64,000 bases of DNA, taken from Victivallis lenta. Its GTDB lineage: Bacteria; Verrucomicrobiota; Lentisphaeria; Victivallales; Victivallaceae. A program made the position numbers and the translations under genes. Positions 39,263-48,229 of this stretch are shown here, piece by piece. The stretch lies in contig NZ_VUNS01000005.1 in the NCBI RefSeq assembly GCF_009695545.1, positions 1 through 64,000 of the forward strand. The letters run 5' to 3'. The notes under the pieces were generated by a model. It was given only the letters and a program-made list of their open reading frames with translations, made no database searches and was not told where the DNA came from. Numbering within the stretch: position 1 is the stretch's first letter; the number at the start of each line of letters is the position of its first letter.

Positions 39263-39290
39263 TTGAAAAATCGCATTTGTCGTATATATT
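39263..39290 (+). promoter_or_regulatory. Promoter before the small exported protein
   Basis: TTGAAA (39263-39268), a 16-base spacer and TATATT (39285-39290) lie 36 bp upstream of the GTG start at 39327. Confidence 0.5.
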
Positions 39291-39326
39291 ATATGCAATT
39301 CTAATCCGGGAGCATTTCATAACATC

Positions 39327-39740
39327 GTGAAAAAGTTCGTTTTACTCTCGCTTCTGCTGCTCTTTGCGGTGCTGGGCATTACAGCCGCCGCGGCAGTCTC
39401 TTCGGGGAATGCCGTGGTCTCCGCTGCTGTCTTGAGCCGGTGCGCGGCTGAAGCGGGGGCGGACCGCACCCTGGCTCCGGCTGCGCCGCAGCAGCAGTCG
39501 GACGATGCGTTTTTCCTGCGCTGCGGCGGCGATACGGTGAACGGACTGATCTGCCGGCTGAACGAAACGGCACGGCCGTTGTCGGCTCGTCTGGTGCTCT
39601 CCTGTTTCGAAATCGCGCGAATTCTCGCGGAGGAGACTCCCCGCGGCAGGGAATTCGCTCCGGTTACGGATTCTCATCCACAAATCCTGATCTGGCTCGC
39701 TTCGTACCTTGAAGTCCGGGCCGGCCCCGCCCTTGCTTGA
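39327..39740 (+). CDS. Small exported hypothetical protein
   Basis: A 137-residue protein with a clear signal peptide (residues about 1-24, FVLLSLLLLFAVLGITAAAAV) and no domain I recognise. It contains three cysteines and a low-complexity Ala-rich middle, with a plausible helical end. The start is GTG, preceded by GGGAG at a long distance. A reasonable promoter stands upstream. It may be an anchored periplasmic protein. The reading frame is supported by the signal peptide and codon bias; the function is unknown. Confidence 0.5.
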   Translation: MKKFVLLSLLLLFAVLGITAAAAVSSGNAVVSAAVLSRCAAEAGADRTLAPAAPQQQSDDAFFLRCGGDTVNGLICRLNETARPLSARLVLSCFEIARILAEETPRGREFAPVTDSHPQILIWLASYLEVRAGPALA

Positions 39741-39952
39741 GCCATTCTGTCGCTTGAGCGTGCCGGCGGTAGCTTTCTGTTGCCTTTTTCCGGTATGACC
39801 ATTTTCGTTCCCGTTTTCCGGTAGTTCCGGCGGCGGGTACTGAGGAAATACCTCTGTACTGTGTTCGTGCCTTTCCGGGCGCGGAACGGTCCGGCGTACT
39901 CATGCGGCATTGTCACAATTTTCCCAACAACAACCAGCAGTGAGTACAAGGT

Positions 39953-41773
39953 ATGAAAAAAGTAGATTTCATGTTGACGGCGTTCCGCGACGGCTTTCAG
40001 TCGGTGTTCGGAGCGCGGGTGTTCAGTTCGGATTTCCTTCCGGTGGTCGAAGAGGCCGCCGCGGCGGGAATCACCCACTTTGAAGCGGGCGGCGGCGCGC
40101 TGTTCCAGGCCGCCTATTTTTACAGCAATGAGGATGCGTTCCGGGTCATGGACGACTTTCGGCGCATCGCCGGGAACAATGCGAATCTTCAGACACTGGC
40201 GCGCGGCATCAACGTGGTCGGTCTCGACAGCCAGCCGCGCGACATCATCAAGCTGCACGCGCAGCTCATGAAGAAGCACGGCATTACGACCATCCGCAAC
40301 TTCGACGCGCTGAACGACGTGAACAACCTTCTTTACAGCGGACACTGCATCGCCGAGGCGGGCCTCAGGCATGAGATCACCGTCACGATGATGGAGCTCC
40401 CGCCGGGATGTGTCGGCCATACGGTCGAATTCTATGAATCCGTGCTGCGGCGCATCCTCGACTCCGGCATTCCATATGATTCCCTCTGCTTCAAGGATGC
40501 ATCGGGCACCTCGACGCCCCACAAGGTCTACGAGACGATCAGGATGGCGCGGAAACTCGTCGGCGGGGATACGCGGATCGTCTTCCACTCCCACGAGACG
40601 GCCGGCTGCAGCGTGCTGGCGTATCACGCCGCGCTCGAAGGCGGCGCGGACCAGCTCGACCTTTCGATCGCGCCGCTCTCGGGCGGCACCTGCCAGCCGG
40701 ATATCCTGACCATGTGGCACGCGCTGCGCGGAACCCAGTACGATCTCGGCGTCGACGTGAAGAAGATCATCAAGCTCGAAGAGAGCCTCAAGGAGGCGAT
40801 GAAGGATTACTTCATGCCGCCGGAAGCCACCCAGGTCAATCCGCTTATCCCGTTCTTCCCGATGCCGGGCGGCGCGCTGACCGCGAATACGCAGATGCTG
40901 CGCGACAACGGGCTTATGGACAAGTATCAGGAAGTCATCGCCGCGATGGGCGAAGCGGTTGCGAAGGGCGGCTTCGGCACGTCGGTCACGCCGGTCAGCC
41001 AGTTCTATTTCCAGCAGGCGTTCAACAACGTCATGTTCGGACCGTGGAAGAAGATCGCCGAGGGGTACGGCAAAATGGTGCTCGGCTACTTCGGCCGCAC
41101 TCCGGCGGAGCCGGATCCGGAGATCGTGAAGATCGCTTCCGAGCAGTTGAAGCTCGAGCCGACCACCCGCAGCCCGCTCGACATCAACGACGAGAATCCG
41201 GCCAAGGGGCGCAAGGCCGCGGTCGCGATGCTCGAGGCGAACAAGCTGCCGGTCACCGACGAGAACATCTTCATCGCCGCGAGCTGCAGCGAGAAGGGCA
41301 TCCGCTTCCTGAAAGGGGAGGGGACGATCGGCGTGCGCAAGATCGACCGGAAGAAGGAGTCCGCCGAGAAGAACGCCGCCGGAACCGCGCCGAAATCCGA
41401 TGCGATGACGGTCACGGTCAACGGCAGGAGCTACGCCGTGAAGTTTTCCGGCAATTCCGCCACGGTCAACGGCAGGCAGTATGACTTCTCGGTCGCCGAC
41501 GGAATCACGGCCGAACAGCCGGTCCGCCAGGCCGCGATGGGCGGGACCGGCGGAGAGTTCACCGAGGTTCACTCGACGCTTCCCGGCGCGGTGATCCGCA
41601 TCCTTGCGAAGCCGGGCGACCAGGTTCAGGCCGGGCAGCTCCTGCTCGTGCTCGAAGCCATGAAGATGGAGACGCCGGTCAACGCGCCGGCGACCGGCGT
41701 TCTGGCGAAACTCGAAGTCACCGAAGGTCAGCAGGTTCAGTCCGGCGCTCTCCTTGCCGTGATCAAAGGCTGA
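39953..41773 (+). CDS. oadA: OadA-like carboxyltransferase with biotinyl domain
   Basis: A 606-residue cytoplasmic subunit. The N-terminal two thirds form an HMGL-like carboxyltransferase barrel (LTAFRDGFQSVFG; LCFKDASGTS with the metal-site Lys about residue 183; HSHETAG about 212). The last 70 residues form a biotin carrier with the AMKM biotinylation Lys (about 562). It is the alpha subunit of a sodium-translocating decarboxylase of oxaloacetate or a related acid, together with the next two genes. The N-terminal TAFRDGFQS differs from the usual RDAHQSL, so the substrate should be treated as open. AAGG stands right before ATG 39953; the ribosome site is weak. It is the first gene of a five-gene operon. 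Confidence 0.88.
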   Translation: MKKVDFMLTAFRDGFQSVFGARVFSSDFLPVVEEAAAAGITHFEAGGGALFQAAYFYSNEDAFRVMDDFRRIAGNNANLQTLARGINVVGLDSQPRDIIKLHAQLMKKHGITTIRNFDALNDVNNLLYSGHCIAEAGLRHEITVTMMELPPGCVGHTVEFYESVLRRILDSGIPYDSLCFKDASGTSTPHKVYETIRMARKLVGGDTRIVFHSHETAGCSVLAYHAALEGGADQLDLSIAPLSGGTCQPDILTMWHALRGTQYDLGVDVKKIIKLEESLKEAMKDYFMPPEATQVNPLIPFFPMPGGALTANTQMLRDNGLMDKYQEVIAAMGEAVAKGGFGTSVTPVSQFYFQQAFNNVMFGPWKKIAEGYGKMVLGYFGRTPAEPDPEIVKIASEQLKLEPTTRSPLDINDENPAKGRKAAVAMLEANKLPVTDENIFIAASCSEKGIRFLKGEGTIGVRKIDRKKESAEKNAAGTAPKSDAMTVTVNGRSYAVKFSGNSATVNGRQYDFSVADGITAEQPVRQAAMGGTGGEFTEVHSTLPGAVIRILAKPGDQVQAGQLLLVLEAMKMETPVNAPATGVLAKLEVTEGQQVQSGALLAVIKG

Positions 41774-41786
41774 GAGGGGGTCTGTG

Positions 41787-43028
41787 ATGAGTAATTTCCT
41801 CGATCTTTTTCAGGGATTCGGCGTGATGGCCGCCTCGGACCCGGTGGTGGTGGCCGTCCGGATCGCACTGGTGATTCTCGGCTTCGTCCTGGTCTGGCTC
41901 GGGCGCAAGGGGGTGCTCGAACCGCTGCTGATGATTCCGATGGGCCTCGGCATGGCCACGATCAACGTCTCTTCCATGTTCTTCGACCCGATCAACATGG
42001 CGAACAAGACCCCCGTGGACCATACCGCGATCAACAACCTGTTTCTCGACTCGACGATCAGCAACAACGATCACCTGATGACGCTCATGCAGATCGACTG
42101 GCTGCAGCCGGTCTACACGCTGACCTTCAGCAACGGCCTTATCGCCTGCCTGATCTTCATCGGCATCGGTTCGCTGCTTGACGTCGGCTTCGTCATGAAG
42201 CGGCCGTACGTCTCGGCGATCATCGCGCTCTTTGCGGAGCTCGGCACGCTGATCACGCTGCCGCTGGCCGCCGCCTGGGGCTACAACCTGAAGGACGCGG
42301 CGTCGATCGCGCTGGTCGGCGGCGCCGACGGCCCGATGGTGCTCTTCGCGTCGCTGAAGCTTTCGCCGCATCTCTTCGTGCCGATCACGGTTGTCGCCTA
42401 CATGTATCTCGGGCTGGCCTACGGCGGGTTCCCGTATCTCGTGAAGTTCCTGATTCCGAAAAAGCTGCAGTCGATCGAAATGCCGCCGGACGATCCGAAA
42501 CTGAAGATCACCAGCGGTCAGAAGCTGACCTTCGCGGTGGTGGCATGCGTGCTGCTGTCGTTCCTGTTCCCGGTCGCGTCGCCGCTCTTCTTTTCGCTGT
42601 TCCTCGGAATCGCGATCCGCGAATCGGGGCTGGACAAGTTCCAGTATCTGGTCAGCGAGATCGTGCTGTATGCGTCGACCCTGACGCTCGGACTGCTGCT
42701 CGGCGTCCTCTGTGAAGCCAAGACGATCATGGACCCGAAAGTGCTGCCGCTGCTGATCTTCGGCATGGCGGCGCTCGGGCTCTCCGGCGTCGGCGGCATC
42801 ATCGGCGGGTATTTCATGTATTTCGTCACCGGCGGCAAGTTCAATCCGGTGATCGGCATCGCGGGCGTGAGCTGCGTGCCGTCCACCGCGAAGGTCGCGC
42901 AGAAATGCGTAACCAAGGCGAACCCGAATGCGATCATCATGCACTATGCGCTCGGGGTCAATATCTTCGGCGTAATCACGACGGCGATCATCGCGGCGAT
43001 TTACATCAGTTTGCTGCAGAATTACTGA
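41787..43028 (+). CDS. oadB: OadB-like sodium-pumping decarboxylase subunit beta
   Basis: A 413-residue, many-helix inner-membrane protein and the sodium channel of the decarboxylase. Family features include the segment GGADGPMVLFASLKL, the conserved IPTSAK-like site in VSCVPSTAKVAQ (about residue 370) and the ending ANPNAIIMHYALGVNIFGVI. GAGGGGG precedes ATG 41787; a GTG one codon earlier is possible. It lies 13 bp after oadA and 13 bp before oadG. It exports two sodium ions per decarboxylation in known systems, building the gradient used by transporters nearby. Confidence 0.92.
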   Translation: MSNFLDLFQGFGVMAASDPVVVAVRIALVILGFVLVWLGRKGVLEPLLMIPMGLGMATINVSSMFFDPINMANKTPVDHTAINNLFLDSTISNNDHLMTLMQIDWLQPVYTLTFSNGLIACLIFIGIGSLLDVGFVMKRPYVSAIIALFAELGTLITLPLAAAWGYNLKDAASIALVGGADGPMVLFASLKLSPHLFVPITVVAYMYLGLAYGGFPYLVKFLIPKKLQSIEMPPDDPKLKITSGQKLTFAVVACVLLSFLFPVASPLFFSLFLGIAIRESGLDKFQYLVSEIVLYASTLTLGLLLGVLCEAKTIMDPKVLPLLIFGMAALGLSGVGGIIGGYFMYFVTGGKFNPVIGIAGVSCVPSTAKVAQKCVTKANPNAIIMHYALGVNIFGVITTAIIAAIYISLLQNY

Positions 43029-43041
43029 GGAGGAGTTTGTT

Positions 43042-43281
43042 ATGGCACAGGCATGGATGGTTATGGGGGAGACCTATCTCCTCACGATCGTGGTTTCGCT
43101 GTTCGTGGCGTTCCTGATCCACATGATGACGCTGCTGATCCGCCGGTTCGGAGCGGCGGCGAAGCCGCTGCCGGCTTCGGCCGAACAGGTCGAGGTTTCA
43201 GCGGCGCCGGACGATCCGGATGAACTTGCCGCGCTCGCCATCGCGGTCGCGGTCAGACGCAATAACGGCGAAGGGAGGTAG
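43042..43281 (+). CDS. oadG: OadG-like small subunit
   Basis: A 79-residue protein with one membrane helix (TYLLTIVVSLFVAFLIHMMTLLI) and a charged cytoplasmic tail ending in DPDELAALAIAVAVRR, typical of OadG/MmdD subunits that bind the carboxyltransferase to the beta subunit. AGGAGG precedes ATG 43042. It lies 13 bp after oadB and 5 bp before secDF. The size is right for the family. Confidence 0.85.
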   Translation: MAQAWMVMGETYLLTIVVSLFVAFLIHMMTLLIRRFGAAAKPLPASAEQVEVSAAPDDPDELAALAIAVAVRRNNGEGR

Positions 43282-43286
43282 TCACC

Positions 43287-45821
43287 ATGGGCGGAAAGCA
43301 CCTGAAGCTGCGCACGATCGTGATTGTCGCGATCATTGCGGTATTTGCCTTCTCGATTTACCCGCTCGCACCGCGGGACTTTTACGAGACGTTCTTCAAG
43401 GCGTTGAAGGTCAAGGACGATGCGGTCGCAGCCGAGCTGGTTTCGGATGCAAAACAACTTCAGGCCGGCCGCCCTGACCTGAACCAGGCGGCGGCGCTCC
43501 TCGAGGCCGCCGAAGCGAAAAAGGTCGATCTCGTGCCGCTCGTCTCCGGGCGGAACCTCGCCGGCAACGCCGACGTGATCGCAATGGTCCGCAAGGAGGC
43601 GTCGGGCTCGATCCGGCTCGGACTCGACCTGAACGGCGGTGTCGAGTTCATTCTCGAGCTGATTCCCGACAAGGAGCTGCTCGCCAGATTCGCGGAGGGC
43701 GGCACCGCCGCCGACCGCGAGAAGATGGAAAAGCAGATCACCACGGAATTCAACCGCTACCGCGAACAGGCGATCGAGACCCTGCGCAAGCGGCTCGAAT
43801 CGCAGAATATCTTCGAGTCGGACATCACGCCGTTCGGAGCGCGTTCGGTGTCGCTGAAGGCGCCGATCACTTCGCGCGACGAGAAGGATAAGCTTCTGTC
43901 GCTCATCAAGATGAGCTGCAAGTTGAACTTCCGCCTCGTCCACCCGGAGAGCGCGCGGCTGCTGGCGAACTACGACCCGGCCACCTATCTGCCGCCTCCC
44001 GGCTACGAGGTGCTCGAGGAAGGCGGCAGAACCCGCGCCCGCTACCTGGTCGCGCGCCGTCCGGAGATGACCGGGCAGTCCGTCTCGAAGGCGATGCCGG
44101 TCCGCGACCAGTTCGGCCAGATCAAAATCGCGCTCGAATTCAATTCGAAGGGGGCGGCGGATTTTGCGCGGGTCACCGGGGAGAATCTGCACCGCCAGCT
44201 CGCCATCGTGCTGGACGACAAGCTTTACTGCGCTCCGGTGATCCAGTCGGTCATCACCGGCGGACATGCTGAAATTTCCGGCTCGTTCTCAAACGAAGAG
44301 GCGCAGCAGATCGCGGACGCACTCAGCGCCGGCAGCTTCCCGTTCCAGATCGATGTGACCGCGGTTTACGACACCGCGCCGTCGATGGGGGCCGACAACG
44401 TCCGGAACGGCATTTACGCCGGCATTCTCGCCGCGGTGCTGCTGACGCTCTTCATGTGCATCTACTACTTCCGGGCCGGGGCGATCGCCTGCATCGCTCT
44501 CGGCGCGAATGTCGTGCTGATCCTCGGCGCGATGGCTGCGTTCGGGGCGACGATGACCATGCCCGGCATCGCCGGCGTGATTCTGACGCTCGGCATGGCG
44601 GTCGATGCGAACGTACTGGTCTTCGAACGCATGCGCGAGGAACTGAACGCCGGAAAGAGCCTGGCCACCGCGGTCGATCTCGGTTACGAGAAGGCATTTT
44701 CGGCCGTCTTTGACGGCAACCTCACCACGCTGATCTGTGCGCTGATCCTGATGTATTTCGGCAGCGGCCCCGTGAAGGGCTTCGCGGTCAGCCTCTCCAT
44801 CGGCATCGTGTCGAGCATGTTCACCGCGCTCTGCCTGACCCGGCTGATCTTCGACTACGCGCTGAAGTACGGCCACTGGAAAACGCTGAAGATGTGCCGC
44901 TTCTTCAAGAATCCGCATTTCGATTTCCTCGGCAGGCGCAAGTGGGCCTTTTTCGGCTCGGGGCTGCTGATCCTGGCGAGCTTGATCATACTGGAGTATA
45001 AGGGTACGAAGATGCTCGGCGTCGATTTTACCGGCGGCACGCGCATCAGCTACACCTACTCCGAACAGGTTCCCGTCGCGGAGCTTGAGAAGCTCCTGCA
45101 GCCGATCGACCCGAATGTGCGGATCAGCTACAAGTCGAACCCGTTCGCCCGCGACAACCGCAAGCTCGAAATCCTGATCCGCGACCGCAGCGGGACGGCG
45201 GAGAGCGGAGCGTTTTCGCTGAACGACCGGGTCACGAAGCTGCTGAATGAGAAATTCCCGGCCCTGAAAGCCGCGGACGGGCAGGAAACCACCGTCGGCG
45301 GACTGGTCGGCGCGGAGACCGGCAAGGCGTCGGTTCTGGCGATTCTGCTCGCGCTGCTCGGCATGTGCATCTACATCTCGATCCGCTTTGAGCTGTCGTT
45401 CGCGGTGGCGGGCATGCTTGCGCTGCTGCACGACGTGATCATCGCGATCGGGCTCTATGTCGCCATGGGCCGTGAGCTTTCGCTGCCGGTCGTGGCTGCG
45501 GTGCTGACCGTCATCGGTTATTCGATCAACGACACGATCGTGATCTTCGACCGCATCCGCGAGGATTCGCGGCTCATGCCGGAGAAGAGCTTCCGTGAAA
45601 TCATCAACATCGCGATCAACAGCACCCTGAGCCGGACGATCCTGACCAGCGTCACGACCTTCCTGGTGGTGGTGGTCATGTTCTGCTTCGGCGGCATCGT
45701 CATCAACGACTTCGTGTTGGTCATGATGCTCGGCATCGTGATCGGGACCTATTCGTCGATCTTCATCGCGAGTCCGCTCGCGGCGATGTGGCACCGCAGG
45801 ATCGGAGCGGCGAAGCAATGA
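43287..45821 (+). CDS. secDF: Fused protein translocase subunit SecDF
   Basis: An 844-residue inner-membrane protein. SecD part (about 1-560): LGLDLNGGVEFILEL, the periplasmic P1 region, and ITGGHAEISG; SecF part (about 575-844): GTKMLGVDFTGGTRISY and the last membrane bundle VIGYSINDTIVIFDRIRED. It drives the late step of protein export using the ion-motive force; some marine SecDF homologues use sodium. GGGAGG precedes ATG 43287. It is fourth in the oad operon and overlaps the next gene by ATGA. Linkage with a sodium pump suggests, but does not prove, sodium dependence. Confidence 0.95.
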   Translation: MGGKHLKLRTIVIVAIIAVFAFSIYPLAPRDFYETFFKALKVKDDAVAAELVSDAKQLQAGRPDLNQAAALLEAAEAKKVDLVPLVSGRNLAGNADVIAMVRKEASGSIRLGLDLNGGVEFILELIPDKELLARFAEGGTAADREKMEKQITTEFNRYREQAIETLRKRLESQNIFESDITPFGARSVSLKAPITSRDEKDKLLSLIKMSCKLNFRLVHPESARLLANYDPATYLPPPGYEVLEEGGRTRARYLVARRPEMTGQSVSKAMPVRDQFGQIKIALEFNSKGAADFARVTGENLHRQLAIVLDDKLYCAPVIQSVITGGHAEISGSFSNEEAQQIADALSAGSFPFQIDVTAVYDTAPSMGADNVRNGIYAGILAAVLLTLFMCIYYFRAGAIACIALGANVVLILGAMAAFGATMTMPGIAGVILTLGMAVDANVLVFERMREELNAGKSLATAVDLGYEKAFSAVFDGNLTTLICALILMYFGSGPVKGFAVSLSIGIVSSMFTALCLTRLIFDYALKYGHWKTLKMCRFFKNPHFDFLGRRKWAFFGSGLLILASLIILEYKGTKMLGVDFTGGTRISYTYSEQVPVAELEKLLQPIDPNVRISYKSNPFARDNRKLEILIRDRSGTAESGAFSLNDRVTKLLNEKFPALKAADGQETTVGGLVGAETGKASVLAILLALLGMCIYISIRFELSFAVAGMLALLHDVIIAIGLYVAMGRELSLPVVAAVLTVIGYSINDTIVIFDRIREDSRLMPEKSFREIINIAINSTLSRTILTSVTTFLVVVVMFCFGGIVINDFVLVMMLGIVIGTYSSIFIASPLAAMWHRRIGAAKQ

Positions 45822-48229
45822 AGAAACGAGGCATTTTCGCATCCGTCCTTCTGCTGGCCGCGCTTTTCCTGCTGCTGCCGGGTTGTTCGCGCGAGGCGGA
45901 GGGGCGGCAGGTCGATTCGATCAAAGTCCTGCAGGGCGACGGACAGGTCGGTCTGCCGGGCCGGCCGTTCGGTTCCGAGCTCGTGCTTGAGCTGCTGGAT
46001 GTGGACGGCGTACCGGTTCCGGGTGCGGAAGTCCGGGTGCAGGCCGCCCGGAATTCCGATCTTCCGGTTCCGGCGGAGCGTTTCAGGGCGGACGCCGGAG
46101 GTGTCGTGCGGATTCCGGTCTCCGCCGGGAAGGTGCTCGGCGACAACTATCTGGAAATCATTCCCGTCGGAGCGGAGAACCGGTCGCGGAGCTGCCGTTT
46201 CGTCACCGGCCTCGAGATCGACGGCGGCCGGCAGCAGGGAGCCGCCGGCAGTACGCTCGACCGGCCGATCTCGGTCCGCGTCGTTGATGCGGACGGTGTT
46301 CCGGTTGCGGGGCAGCCGGTCTACTTCGGCATCGTGAACGCTCCGGAGGGGGGGGCGGCGCGGTTGTCGGACGAAGTTGCGGCGACCGATTCCTCCGGTG
46401 TGGCCCGGACCCGGGTCACGCTCGGCAGCGGCACCGGCGGATATGAGGTCGAGGTCAAGCCGACCGGCCCGGACGGGCGGCTGCTGACCCGCGGCGTGAC
46501 CGTTGAGGTCATGGGCCTCAACCTCCCGAACCTTCTGATCAGCGCGTTTGCCGGGTTGGCGATTTTCATCTTCGGCATGCACCTGATGAGCGACGGCCTC
46601 CAGAAGACCGCCGGGGAGAAGATGAAAACGATCATCCGGCTCTTCGCCCGGAACCGTTTCGTCGGGCTGCTGGCCGGGGCGGGCGTCACCGCCGTGATCC
46701 AGTCCTCCAGCGCGACGACGGTCATGGTGATCGGCTTCATCAACGCGGGGCTGCTGAACCTCGCCCAGTCGATCGGCATCATTTTCGGCACGAACATCGG
46801 CACGACCGTCACGGCGCAGATCGTTTCGTTCAACGTCTCGACGCTTGCAATGCCGGCGATCATCGCCGGGCTGCTGCTCTTCTTCATCCCGTACCGGAAC
46901 TGCCGCGGCATCGGGGAAACCGTGCTCGGCTTCGGTTTCCTCTTCTACGGCATGGTGCTGATGAGCGACGAACTGACCCGTATCGCGGATTTCCCGACGG
47001 TCACGCGGCTCTTCTCGCACTTCGACTGCACGCCGCTTGACGGCGTCATGCCGTTCGGAGCGGTCATCGGAGCGCTCTGCATCGGGCTGGTGGTCACGAT
47101 GATCATCCAGTCGAGCTCGGCTTCGACCGGCATCATCATCGCGCTCGGCGCGGGCGGACTCATCAACCTCTATACCGCGATGCCGCTCGTGCTCGGCGCG
47201 AACATCGGCACGACCGTGACGGCGCAGCTCGCGGCGATTCCGGCCAACCGGGTCGCGAAGCAGGCGGCGCTCGCGCATACGCTCTTCAACGTGGCCGGCA
47301 CGCTGATCATGCTTGTGTTTTTCTACGTTCCGTGGGGAGCGACCGAGGTGCCGGTCTTCTTCCACATCGTGGATGCGATCACGCCCGGAGACGCGTTCTC
47401 GGCGATTCCGCAGAACGTTCCGCGCCACATTGCGAACGCCCACACGCTGTTCAACGTGTTCACGGCCGTGATTTTGCTGCCGTTCGTCATGCCGCTCGCC
47501 CATGTCTGCGAGCGGCTGATTCCCGCGAAGCGGAAGATCAAGTATACGAGCCTCGACCCGTATCTGCTTGAAAATCCGCCGATCGCGCTGCACCAGACCG
47601 TCACCCGGCTGCGCACCATGACCCGCAGCGCCTGGAGCGTTTTCGAGAAAACCATGCGCGACACCGTGCTGAACGGCGGCTACGACGCCGAAAAGCGCGA
47701 GGAGTACCGCAAGCGCGAAAGCAAGATCGACCGCATGCAGGAGGAGATTACCGCCTACCTTGTCCAGCTCGCCCAGCGCGAGCTGACGCTGCCCCAGTCG
47801 CGGATGATTCCGGTGCTGACCCACTGCGCGAACGACGCGGAACGTCTGGCCGATTACGCGGAGCTGGTTCTGAAGGAGGCGGCCCGGCTGGCCGAACGGC
47901 GCGAGAAGTTTTCGAAAAAGTCCGAGAAGGAGCTCAGAACCCTGTTCGACCTGACCGGCCGCATGGCTTCGAAGGTCCTTGCCGCCCTTGAAAAAGGGGA
48001 CGAGGAGCCGGCCGGAGAGGCCCGGGAGCTCGGGCGTGAAATCCGCCAGCAGGTCAGCCGCATGGTGAACGCCTATCCCGGCAATCTCCGCAAAGGCTCC
48101 TTCAATGTCGAAAGCGGTATCATCTTTCTCTCGCTGGCCGGAATTTTCCGCCAGGCGGCCGAACGGCTGGACAACATCGCCGTCCGTGCCTCCTCGCTCA
48201 CCCGTTATGAGTGGGAGGAGCGCAAATAG
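45818..48229 (+). CDS. Lipoprotein/Ig-like domains fused to Na/Pi cotransporter and PhoU-like domain
   Basis: An 803-residue unusual fusion. It starts with a lipoprotein signal (LLLPGC, Cys about residue 23), then two Big_1-like immunoglobulin domains (about 30-120 and 125-225: VDGVPVPGAEVRV, ADGVPVAGQPVYF), then an Na/Pi-cotransporter core (about 230-560) with the two QSSSATT-type repeats (VIQSSSATTVMVIG; IIQSSSASTGIIIAL), then a PhoU-like helical region (about 590-790). Phosphate transport with sodium is inferred from the core. Ordinary family members lack the lipoprotein-Ig part, which would sit outside. It overlaps secDF by ATGA and closes the operon. Confidence 0.88.
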   Translation: MKKRGIFASVLLLAALFLLLPGCSREAEGRQVDSIKVLQGDGQVGLPGRPFGSELVLELLDVDGVPVPGAEVRVQAARNSDLPVPAERFRADAGGVVRIPVSAGKVLGDNYLEIIPVGAENRSRSCRFVTGLEIDGGRQQGAAGSTLDRPISVRVVDADGVPVAGQPVYFGIVNAPEGGAARLSDEVAATDSSGVARTRVTLGSGTGGYEVEVKPTGPDGRLLTRGVTVEVMGLNLPNLLISAFAGLAIFIFGMHLMSDGLQKTAGEKMKTIIRLFARNRFVGLLAGAGVTAVIQSSSATTVMVIGFINAGLLNLAQSIGIIFGTNIGTTVTAQIVSFNVSTLAMPAIIAGLLLFFIPYRNCRGIGETVLGFGFLFYGMVLMSDELTRIADFPTVTRLFSHFDCTPLDGVMPFGAVIGALCIGLVVTMIIQSSSASTGIIIALGAGGLINLYTAMPLVLGANIGTTVTAQLAAIPANRVAKQAALAHTLFNVAGTLIMLVFFYVPWGATEVPVFFHIVDAITPGDAFSAIPQNVPRHIANAHTLFNVFTAVILLPFVMPLAHVCERLIPAKRKIKYTSLDPYLLENPPIALHQTVTRLRTMTRSAWSVFEKTMRDTVLNGGYDAEKREEYRKRESKIDRMQEEITAYLVQLAQRELTLPQSRMIPVLTHCANDAERLADYAELVLKEAARLAERREKFSKKSEKELRTLFDLTGRMASKVLAALEKGDEEPAGEARELGREIRQQVSRMVNAYPGNLRKGSFNVESGIIFLSLAGIFRQAAERLDNIAVRASSLTRYEWEERK

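Follow-up and report, generated by a model that had tools for sequence, protein, structure and literature searches.

The window, a stretch of 64,000 nucleotides from Victivallis lenta (NCBI RefSeq assembly GCF_009695545.1, contig NZ_VUNS01000005.1, positions 1 to 64,000), carries five closely spaced genes on its forward strand, preceded by a small upstream open reading frame (uORF) (Table 1). The original prediction, which covered the interval 39953-48229, had described five genes with 13, 13 and 5 bp between successive members and an overlap (ATGA) at the last joint, and the gene calls and Pfam matches bore this out. The two gaps of 13 bp separate oadA from oadB and oadB from oadG, the gap of 5 bp lies between oadG and secDF, and the transporter gene starts within the secDF stop. 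For the oadB-like gene, a GTG at 41784 offers an alternative start. The uORF lies outside that interval and ends 212 nt before oadA.

Table 1. Features of the uORF and the five-gene operon in the window.
Feature	Positions	Strand	Remarks
Promoter-like site TTGAAA-16-TATATT ahead of the uORF	39263..39292	+	10/12 matches, consensus match only
uORF, 137 codons: signal peptide, variable middle, C-terminal WLASYLEVRAGPALA-stop	39327..39740	+	candidate export-monitoring arrest peptide
TCGTACCTTG, 10-bp complement of the oadA ribosome-binding site and start codon (39947-39956)	39702..39711	+	duplex -17.8 kcal/mol
RAGP codons (CGG GCC GGC CCC), predicted arrest site	39717..39728	+	sequence; motif of SecM and RQH peptides (PMC10987492)
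Terminator-like hairpin followed by TTTTT, between uORF and oadA	39765..39784	+	consensus match only
oadA-like carboxyltransferase/biotin carrier (OadA-2 subfamily)	39953..41773	+	
oadB-like carboxybiotin decarboxylase/ion pump subunit	41787..43028	+	MadB nearest among NCBIfam models
oadG-like small membrane subunit	43042..43281	+	below curated cut-offs
SecDF2, second SecDF paralogue of this genome	43287..45821	+	
Na/Pi transporter (NptA/PhoU type), lipoprotein-like N-terminus, Big_1 domain	45818..48229	+	

Upon comparison with Pfam, the oadA-like product matched PYC_OADA (1e-29) and Biotin_lipoyl, both above the Pfam cut-offs, and the oadB-like product matched OAD_beta (4e-102, cut-off passed). 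The oadG-like product matched OAD_gamma (5e-5) with 24.2 bits, under the cut-off of 27 bits. The SecDF protein was matched by SecD_SecF_C (1e-76) and the transporter by Na_Pi_cotrans (1e-62), together with PhoU and a Big_1 domain; the transporter also passed the NCBIfam model for Na/Pi symporters, NF037997 (206.5 vs a cut-off of 50). Against the NCBIfam models of Na+-translocating oxaloacetate and malonate decarboxylases, the pump subunits scored under every curated cut-off (score/cut-off: OadA 309/756.5, OadB 187.8/190.6, MadB 453.6/596.9, OadG 21.5/36.05). With these scores, and with the B subunit nearest to MadB, the pump is therefore named OadABG-like, and its putative substrate and ion are assigned from the family only. 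A second pair of OadA and OadB is encoded elsewhere in the genome. Near full-length matches to the Na/Pi transporter were found in V. vadensis and in the genomes G040, G046 and G007. At its lipoprotein-like N-terminus the protein reads LLPGCSRE, and the Big_1 domain precedes the transporter and PhoU domains.

The product of the uORF (39327-39740) gave no Pfam or NCBIfam match. It begins with a basic start and a hydrophobic stretch (hydropathy 3.2), as do its relatives, which is a predicted export signal. In the window protein a spacer of about 105 residues, against the more than 30 expected of RQH-type peptides, leads from this signal to the tail WLASYLEV-RAGP-ALA-stop, in the same register as the ribosome-arrest peptide SecM. 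RAGP closes the arrest motif of SecM, and many of the export-monitoring arrest peptides encoded upstream of secA and secDF terminate in RAPP-like motifs (PMC10987492, PMC12992588, PMC7897499); Fujiwara et al. included RAGP, RADP and RDGP in the motifs used as queries (PMC10987492).

Seven uORFs could be aligned, with 26-35% identity to that of the window. The invariant columns are limited to M, K, one R, W and R-A-x-P, and the RAPP-like motif is thus kept at the C-terminus of divergent homologues, as is typical of the RQH type. The invariant W stands eight residues ahead of the R of the motif, which is also the position of the Trp in the SecM motif as published (PMC12992588). In seven out of eight uORF pairs dN was lower than dS overall, dS being saturated in the eighth pair; over the last 25 codons, dN was 0.21-0.30 and dS was 0.58 or more, or saturated. 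The uORF is a real gene, with a coding sequence under purifying selection. An HMM search of nine genomes of the genus gave seven strong hits, all located before oadA-2 or secDF2 genes, with a single strong hit in the window's genome.

It is quite improbable that the uORF encodes a small exported protein with a job of its own, in which the terminal RAGP is due to chance or to a role in export rather than arrest. Such a reading could draw on the observation that most of the RAPP-like sequences that Fujiwara et al. tested from E. coli and B. subtilis showed no efficient stalling (PMC10987492). Against it, the tail recurs beside both SecDF2 and OadA-2 at the low overall identity given above. RAGP was also rare in comparable positions: among 227 other hydrophobic-start ORFs (80-260 codons, from part of the examined loci), three carried it in the last 20 residues, two of them being uORFs of SecDF2 operons (G029 and G036) and the third running antisense to the uORF of the window.

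The SecDF of the window is the second in its genome, the first being located on contig C2 behind a yajC-like gene. The reference ORF before SecDF1 we take to be YajC, from our own reading of its sequence. From a longer list, 97 SecDF loci of the order were taken for analysis, and one partial sequence (L159) was left out of the tree. In the resulting tree of 96 rows, the window SecDF grouped in a 17-row clade with a support of 100 that has no yajC-linked member and was given the name SecDF2; all 76 yajC-linked rows were placed outside this clade. A uORF was scored at a SecDF locus when an ORF of at least 50 residues whose 20 C-terminal residues included RAGP lay within 1 kb upstream. Of the 16 SecDF2 loci for which upstream sequence was available, 12 had such a uORF, and none of the 76 yajC-linked loci did, in the 1 kb upstream that was searched; four SecDF2 uORFs sit further up than that. 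These four are found before oadA in the window and in V. vadensis, and before a VCA0040-like gene in G029 and G036, where they lie 1390 and 1425 nt from secDF2, in front of the gene that precedes it. Counted this way, a RAGP uORF is present at all 16 SecDF2 loci with upstream sequence, the locus of G016 being cut at the contig start. Eight rows of the tree lacked both yajC and a RAGP uORF within 1 kb: SecDF2 accounts for five of these (the window, V. vadensis, G029, G036 and G016), and the three not belonging to SecDF2 are L046, L161 and L170. The uORF stands directly before secDF2 in 12 relatives, the arrangement expected of sec/yidC uORFs, and in the window it stands before an operon in which secDF2 comes fourth.

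In G029, the gene between the RAGP uORF and secDF2 matches the VCA0040-like undecaprenyl-phosphate translocase family (7e-78). This gene (L072:8544-9485), like the matching place in G036 (L073), is found where Victivallis has the sodium pump. A single TAA was reported inside the SecDF2 match on G029:C18, G036:C61 and G016:C51 (L036-L038), which is probably the gene end; in G029 and G036 SecDF2 has an open frame of about 845 residues despite it. On G000:C50:960-1469 (L076), a stretch resembled SecDF in the P1 head region alone, at 34-39% identity, and the match contains a TGA; a similar piece was present on G046:C53.

The SecDF2 of the window has the SecD and SecF domains of a SecDF translocase and its conserved transmembrane Asp and Arg motifs (AVDAN, GYSIND and LSRT), which align with those of Thermus SecDF. 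SecDF1 and SecDF2 were distinguished by only five diagnostic columns, none of which is a charge change, and both paralogues carry the Asp and Arg motifs. We know of no SecDF residue that discriminates Na+ from H+. The genome also encodes a V-type ATPase K subunit and the Rnf subunit RnfD (L263 and L264), above the cut-offs of NF005174 and TIGR01946, respectively. Both are further possible parts of a sodium economy, which is therefore plausible.

The locus could also be an ordinary sodium-cycle operon without a switch, its single transcript encoding the pump together with a Na+-driven SecDF and a Na+/phosphate symporter that the pump feeds. The gene order, the short gaps and the plausible sodium economy speak for it, but this explanation ignores the uORF, the SecDF residues do not reveal the ion, and the full order is restricted to very few genomes; we regard it as possible though doubtful. 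Among 137 genomes of the order, the full five-gene order was shared only by the window and Victivallis vadensis DSM 14823, which is two of the nine genomes of the genus. Conservation of the order in relatives, named as a check in the original prediction, was thus not borne out, and whole-operon conservation was rejected as support for the sodium-cycle reading. A MadB-like B subunit was present in 7 out of 60 genomes of the family. In G040 and G046, secDF2 and nptA occur without a pump in front, and in G007 nptA is accompanied by 28 residues of secDF2 at the contig end. No secDF2 follows the pump in G007 and G034, and the remaining pump loci of the order had no adjoining secDF2 match.

A uORF was found before OadA-2 at 10 of the 13 loci of the order with upstream sequence. 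It contains a hydrophobic segment and ends in RAGP in four (the window, V. vadensis, G095 and G013), in RADP in another four (G007, G116, G117 and G040), in RAAP in G022 and in RDGP in G100; no such uORF was found upstream of OadA-2 in G006, G080 and G084. For the pump of G040, a contig end leaves only the uORF and 65 bases at the start of oadA. At OadA-1 loci, none of the 21 inspected, out of about 100 matches, had a hydrophobic-start uORF of this type. Among the best 80 of 174 named loci with relatives of OadB-2, a uORF was present in four (L183, L184, L185 and L188), belonging to Victivallis, V. vadensis, a Victivallaceae bacterium and a Lentisphaerae bacterium, and the other 76 had none by the filter used.

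Apart from the window and V. vadensis, the pump module has its own RAGP, RADP, RDGP or RAAP uORF in eight further genomes. In three of these (G040, G022 and G013) the pump module and the SecDF2 module each have a uORF of this kind, two per genome. In another four (G095, G100, G116 and G117) no SecDF2 was found; their single SecDF is yajC-linked in G095, G100 and G116 and scores 787 bits in G117, which is at the SecDF1 level. With a single SecDF found in each of these four genomes, the pump is the apparent target there. In G116 and G117, which belong to another family of the order, OadA-2 fragments (G116:C63 and G117:C185; L120 and L119) are 93-95% identical to that of the window and have a RADP uORF in front, an identity across families that suggests a recent horizontal transfer of the peptide-pump module.

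As an operon, the linkage of pump and SecDF is not conserved; a functional link between the pump and SecDF2 is nevertheless supported by sequence comparison, the same kind of uORF being found before both modules even where these are unlinked. For the same reason, it is highly improbable that the pump and SecDF2 came together by chance in two Victivallis species and that their neighbourhood has no functional meaning. The merged order, seen in two genomes only, would agree with chance, but the oadG-secDF2 joints are tight, at 5 bp in the window and no more than a few bp in V. vadensis. A common sensor is offered here as the reason why the two are neighbours.

In Vibrio, a constitutive SecDF1 uses Na+ and the SecDF2 under arrest control is the putative H+ type (PMC11470409). 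By the same logic, the SecDF2 of the window, if likewise arrest-controlled, would be an H+ backup as with VemP, and the pump would serve another purpose, for example carbon metabolism. This explanation is unlikely: the pump has an arrest-type uORF of its own when it is unlinked from SecDF2, including in the four genomes with a single SecDF, which argues that the pump itself is a target.

The sequence between the uORF and oadA was inspected for signals that could couple the two. Pairing of 39702-39711, located just before the RAGP codons, with 39947-39956 was equalled in strength in 10 out of 300 shuffles. The corresponding pairing between uORF tail and start site was equalled in 0 of 300 shuffles in G100 and in 7 in G017, and only 3 of the 21 loci were at 10/300 or fewer, so it is not general among relatives. 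The predicted accessibility of the oadA start region in the window was 0.07, vs 0.34 in shuffles, and lay under all 15 shuffles; over 11 of the 21 loci, G100 resembled the window and most others did not. A terminator-like hairpin follows the uORF stop at +24 in the window and at +16 in V. vadensis. Among the other 19 loci, four had such a hairpin within the gap and one had a hairpin overlapping the uORF end. A general RNA switch in the gap between uORF and gene was rejected, the pairing beating most shuffles in the window, G100 and G017 and not at most of the 21 loci. Since neither the pairing nor the hairpin is general among relatives, the coupling step is the weakest part of the mechanism proposed below. 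Directly after the uORF comes oadA, with secDF2 in fourth place at 3.5 kb; coupling of the uORF to secDF2 across this distance is assumed.

The reading we prefer, with a probability of about 0.72, is that a secretion-monitoring arrest peptide leads the operon and induces the OadABG-2 pump, SecDF2 and the Na/Pi transporter when export is slow. The Sec signal of the 137-residue protein would direct the nascent chain to the translocon. During brisk export the translocon would pull the chain, the ribosome would pass RAGP and the downstream genes would remain low. When export is slow, the ribosome would stall at RAGP and the downstream genes would be expressed, so that the sodium pump, a biotin-dependent decarboxylase, is made along with the second SecDF motor and the Na/Pi transporter. 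Poor secretion would then be answered by an ion-motive force and by a motor able to use one. That the uORF arrests ribosomes is predicted from its tail, and the arrest would induce rather than repress, either by unmasking of the oadA start or by antitermination. In the first case the stalled ribosome would cover part of 39702-39711 and so free its pairing partner at 39947-39956; in the second, attenuation or antitermination would take place at the hairpin 39765-39784. Stalling turns on the downstream genes in SecM, MifM, VemP and one RQH peptide before a secDF2 (PMC10987492). The pump presumably moves Na+, and SecDF2 would benefit from it. As the uORF appears to encode a small exported protein built to jam the ribosome on export failure, the pump and SecDF2 are probably switched on together when secretion falters.

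Our best reading is that a known kind of sensor, the RAGP arrest peptide of the SecM/VemP/RQH kind, is placed over what would be a new kind of target, a sodium pump, which it would control along with SecDF or in its place. The export-monitoring arrest peptides described in the literature consulted here adjust the translocase itself (secA, secDF and yidC). We lean, with limited confidence, towards the wider proposal that export-sensing arrest peptides directly control an ion pump in Victivallales-type genomes, the sodium-motive force being raised as part of the response to secretion stress. In this proposal the uORF would head OadABG-2 together with SecDF2 (the window and V. vadensis), separately from it (G040, G022 and G013) or where SecDF2 was not found (G095, G100, G116 and G117), and a VCA0040-like lipid-carrier translocase would replace the pump in two genomes. 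If true, the energy source is among the regulated parts and bioenergetics is tied to secretion through one stalling ribosome. Within a genus that has a type strain (V. vadensis DSM 14823), it would also allow a direct test of whether the sodium-motive force limits export. In the openly licensed literature, no link of arrest peptides with Lentisphaerae, Victivallis or oxaloacetate decarboxylase was found, nor anything on Victivallis with oxaloacetate decarboxylase; some of the SecDF2 uORFs may stand in the supplements of PMC10987492.

The pump resembles the sodium-pumping decarboxylases OadABG and MadB in its Pfam domains, its biotin carrier domain and its set of A, B and G subunits, but forms a subfamily of its own, under the NCBIfam cut-offs for OadA, OadB and MadB. 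With SecM of E. coli the likeness is at the level of the motif: RAGP and a Trp eight residues ahead of the Arg, the tail in G034, of the same genus, reading WIVSAQAV-RAGP. Unlike SecM, the window uORF lacks the Phe five residues ahead of the Trp and heads SecDF and pump genes instead of secA. An identification as E. coli SecM proper (F-x4-WI-x4-GIRAGP before secA) was rejected, the F, WI and GI being absent and no secA lying downstream.

The VemP-secDF2 system of Vibrio likewise has a regulated second SecDF beside another one, a signal-bearing uORF upstream and a link to sodium. The uORF of the window ends in RAGP. A difference is that its operon also contains a sodium pump and a Na/Pi transporter; in Vibrio, moreover, the SecDF2 under regulation is putatively of the H+ type (PMC11470409). 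The RQH peptides of Fujiwara et al. 2024 (PMC10987492) share a small uORF, a localization signal, a spacer of more than 30 residues and a C-terminal RAGP, RADP or RDGP, and, as in the relatives of the window, a position directly upstream of secDF. The published RQH screen covered uORFs upstream of secA, secDF and yidC (PMC10987492). In the window, in V. vadensis and in the eight genomes with an unlinked pump, by contrast, the first gene under the putative control of the uORF is a subunit of a decarboxylase pump.
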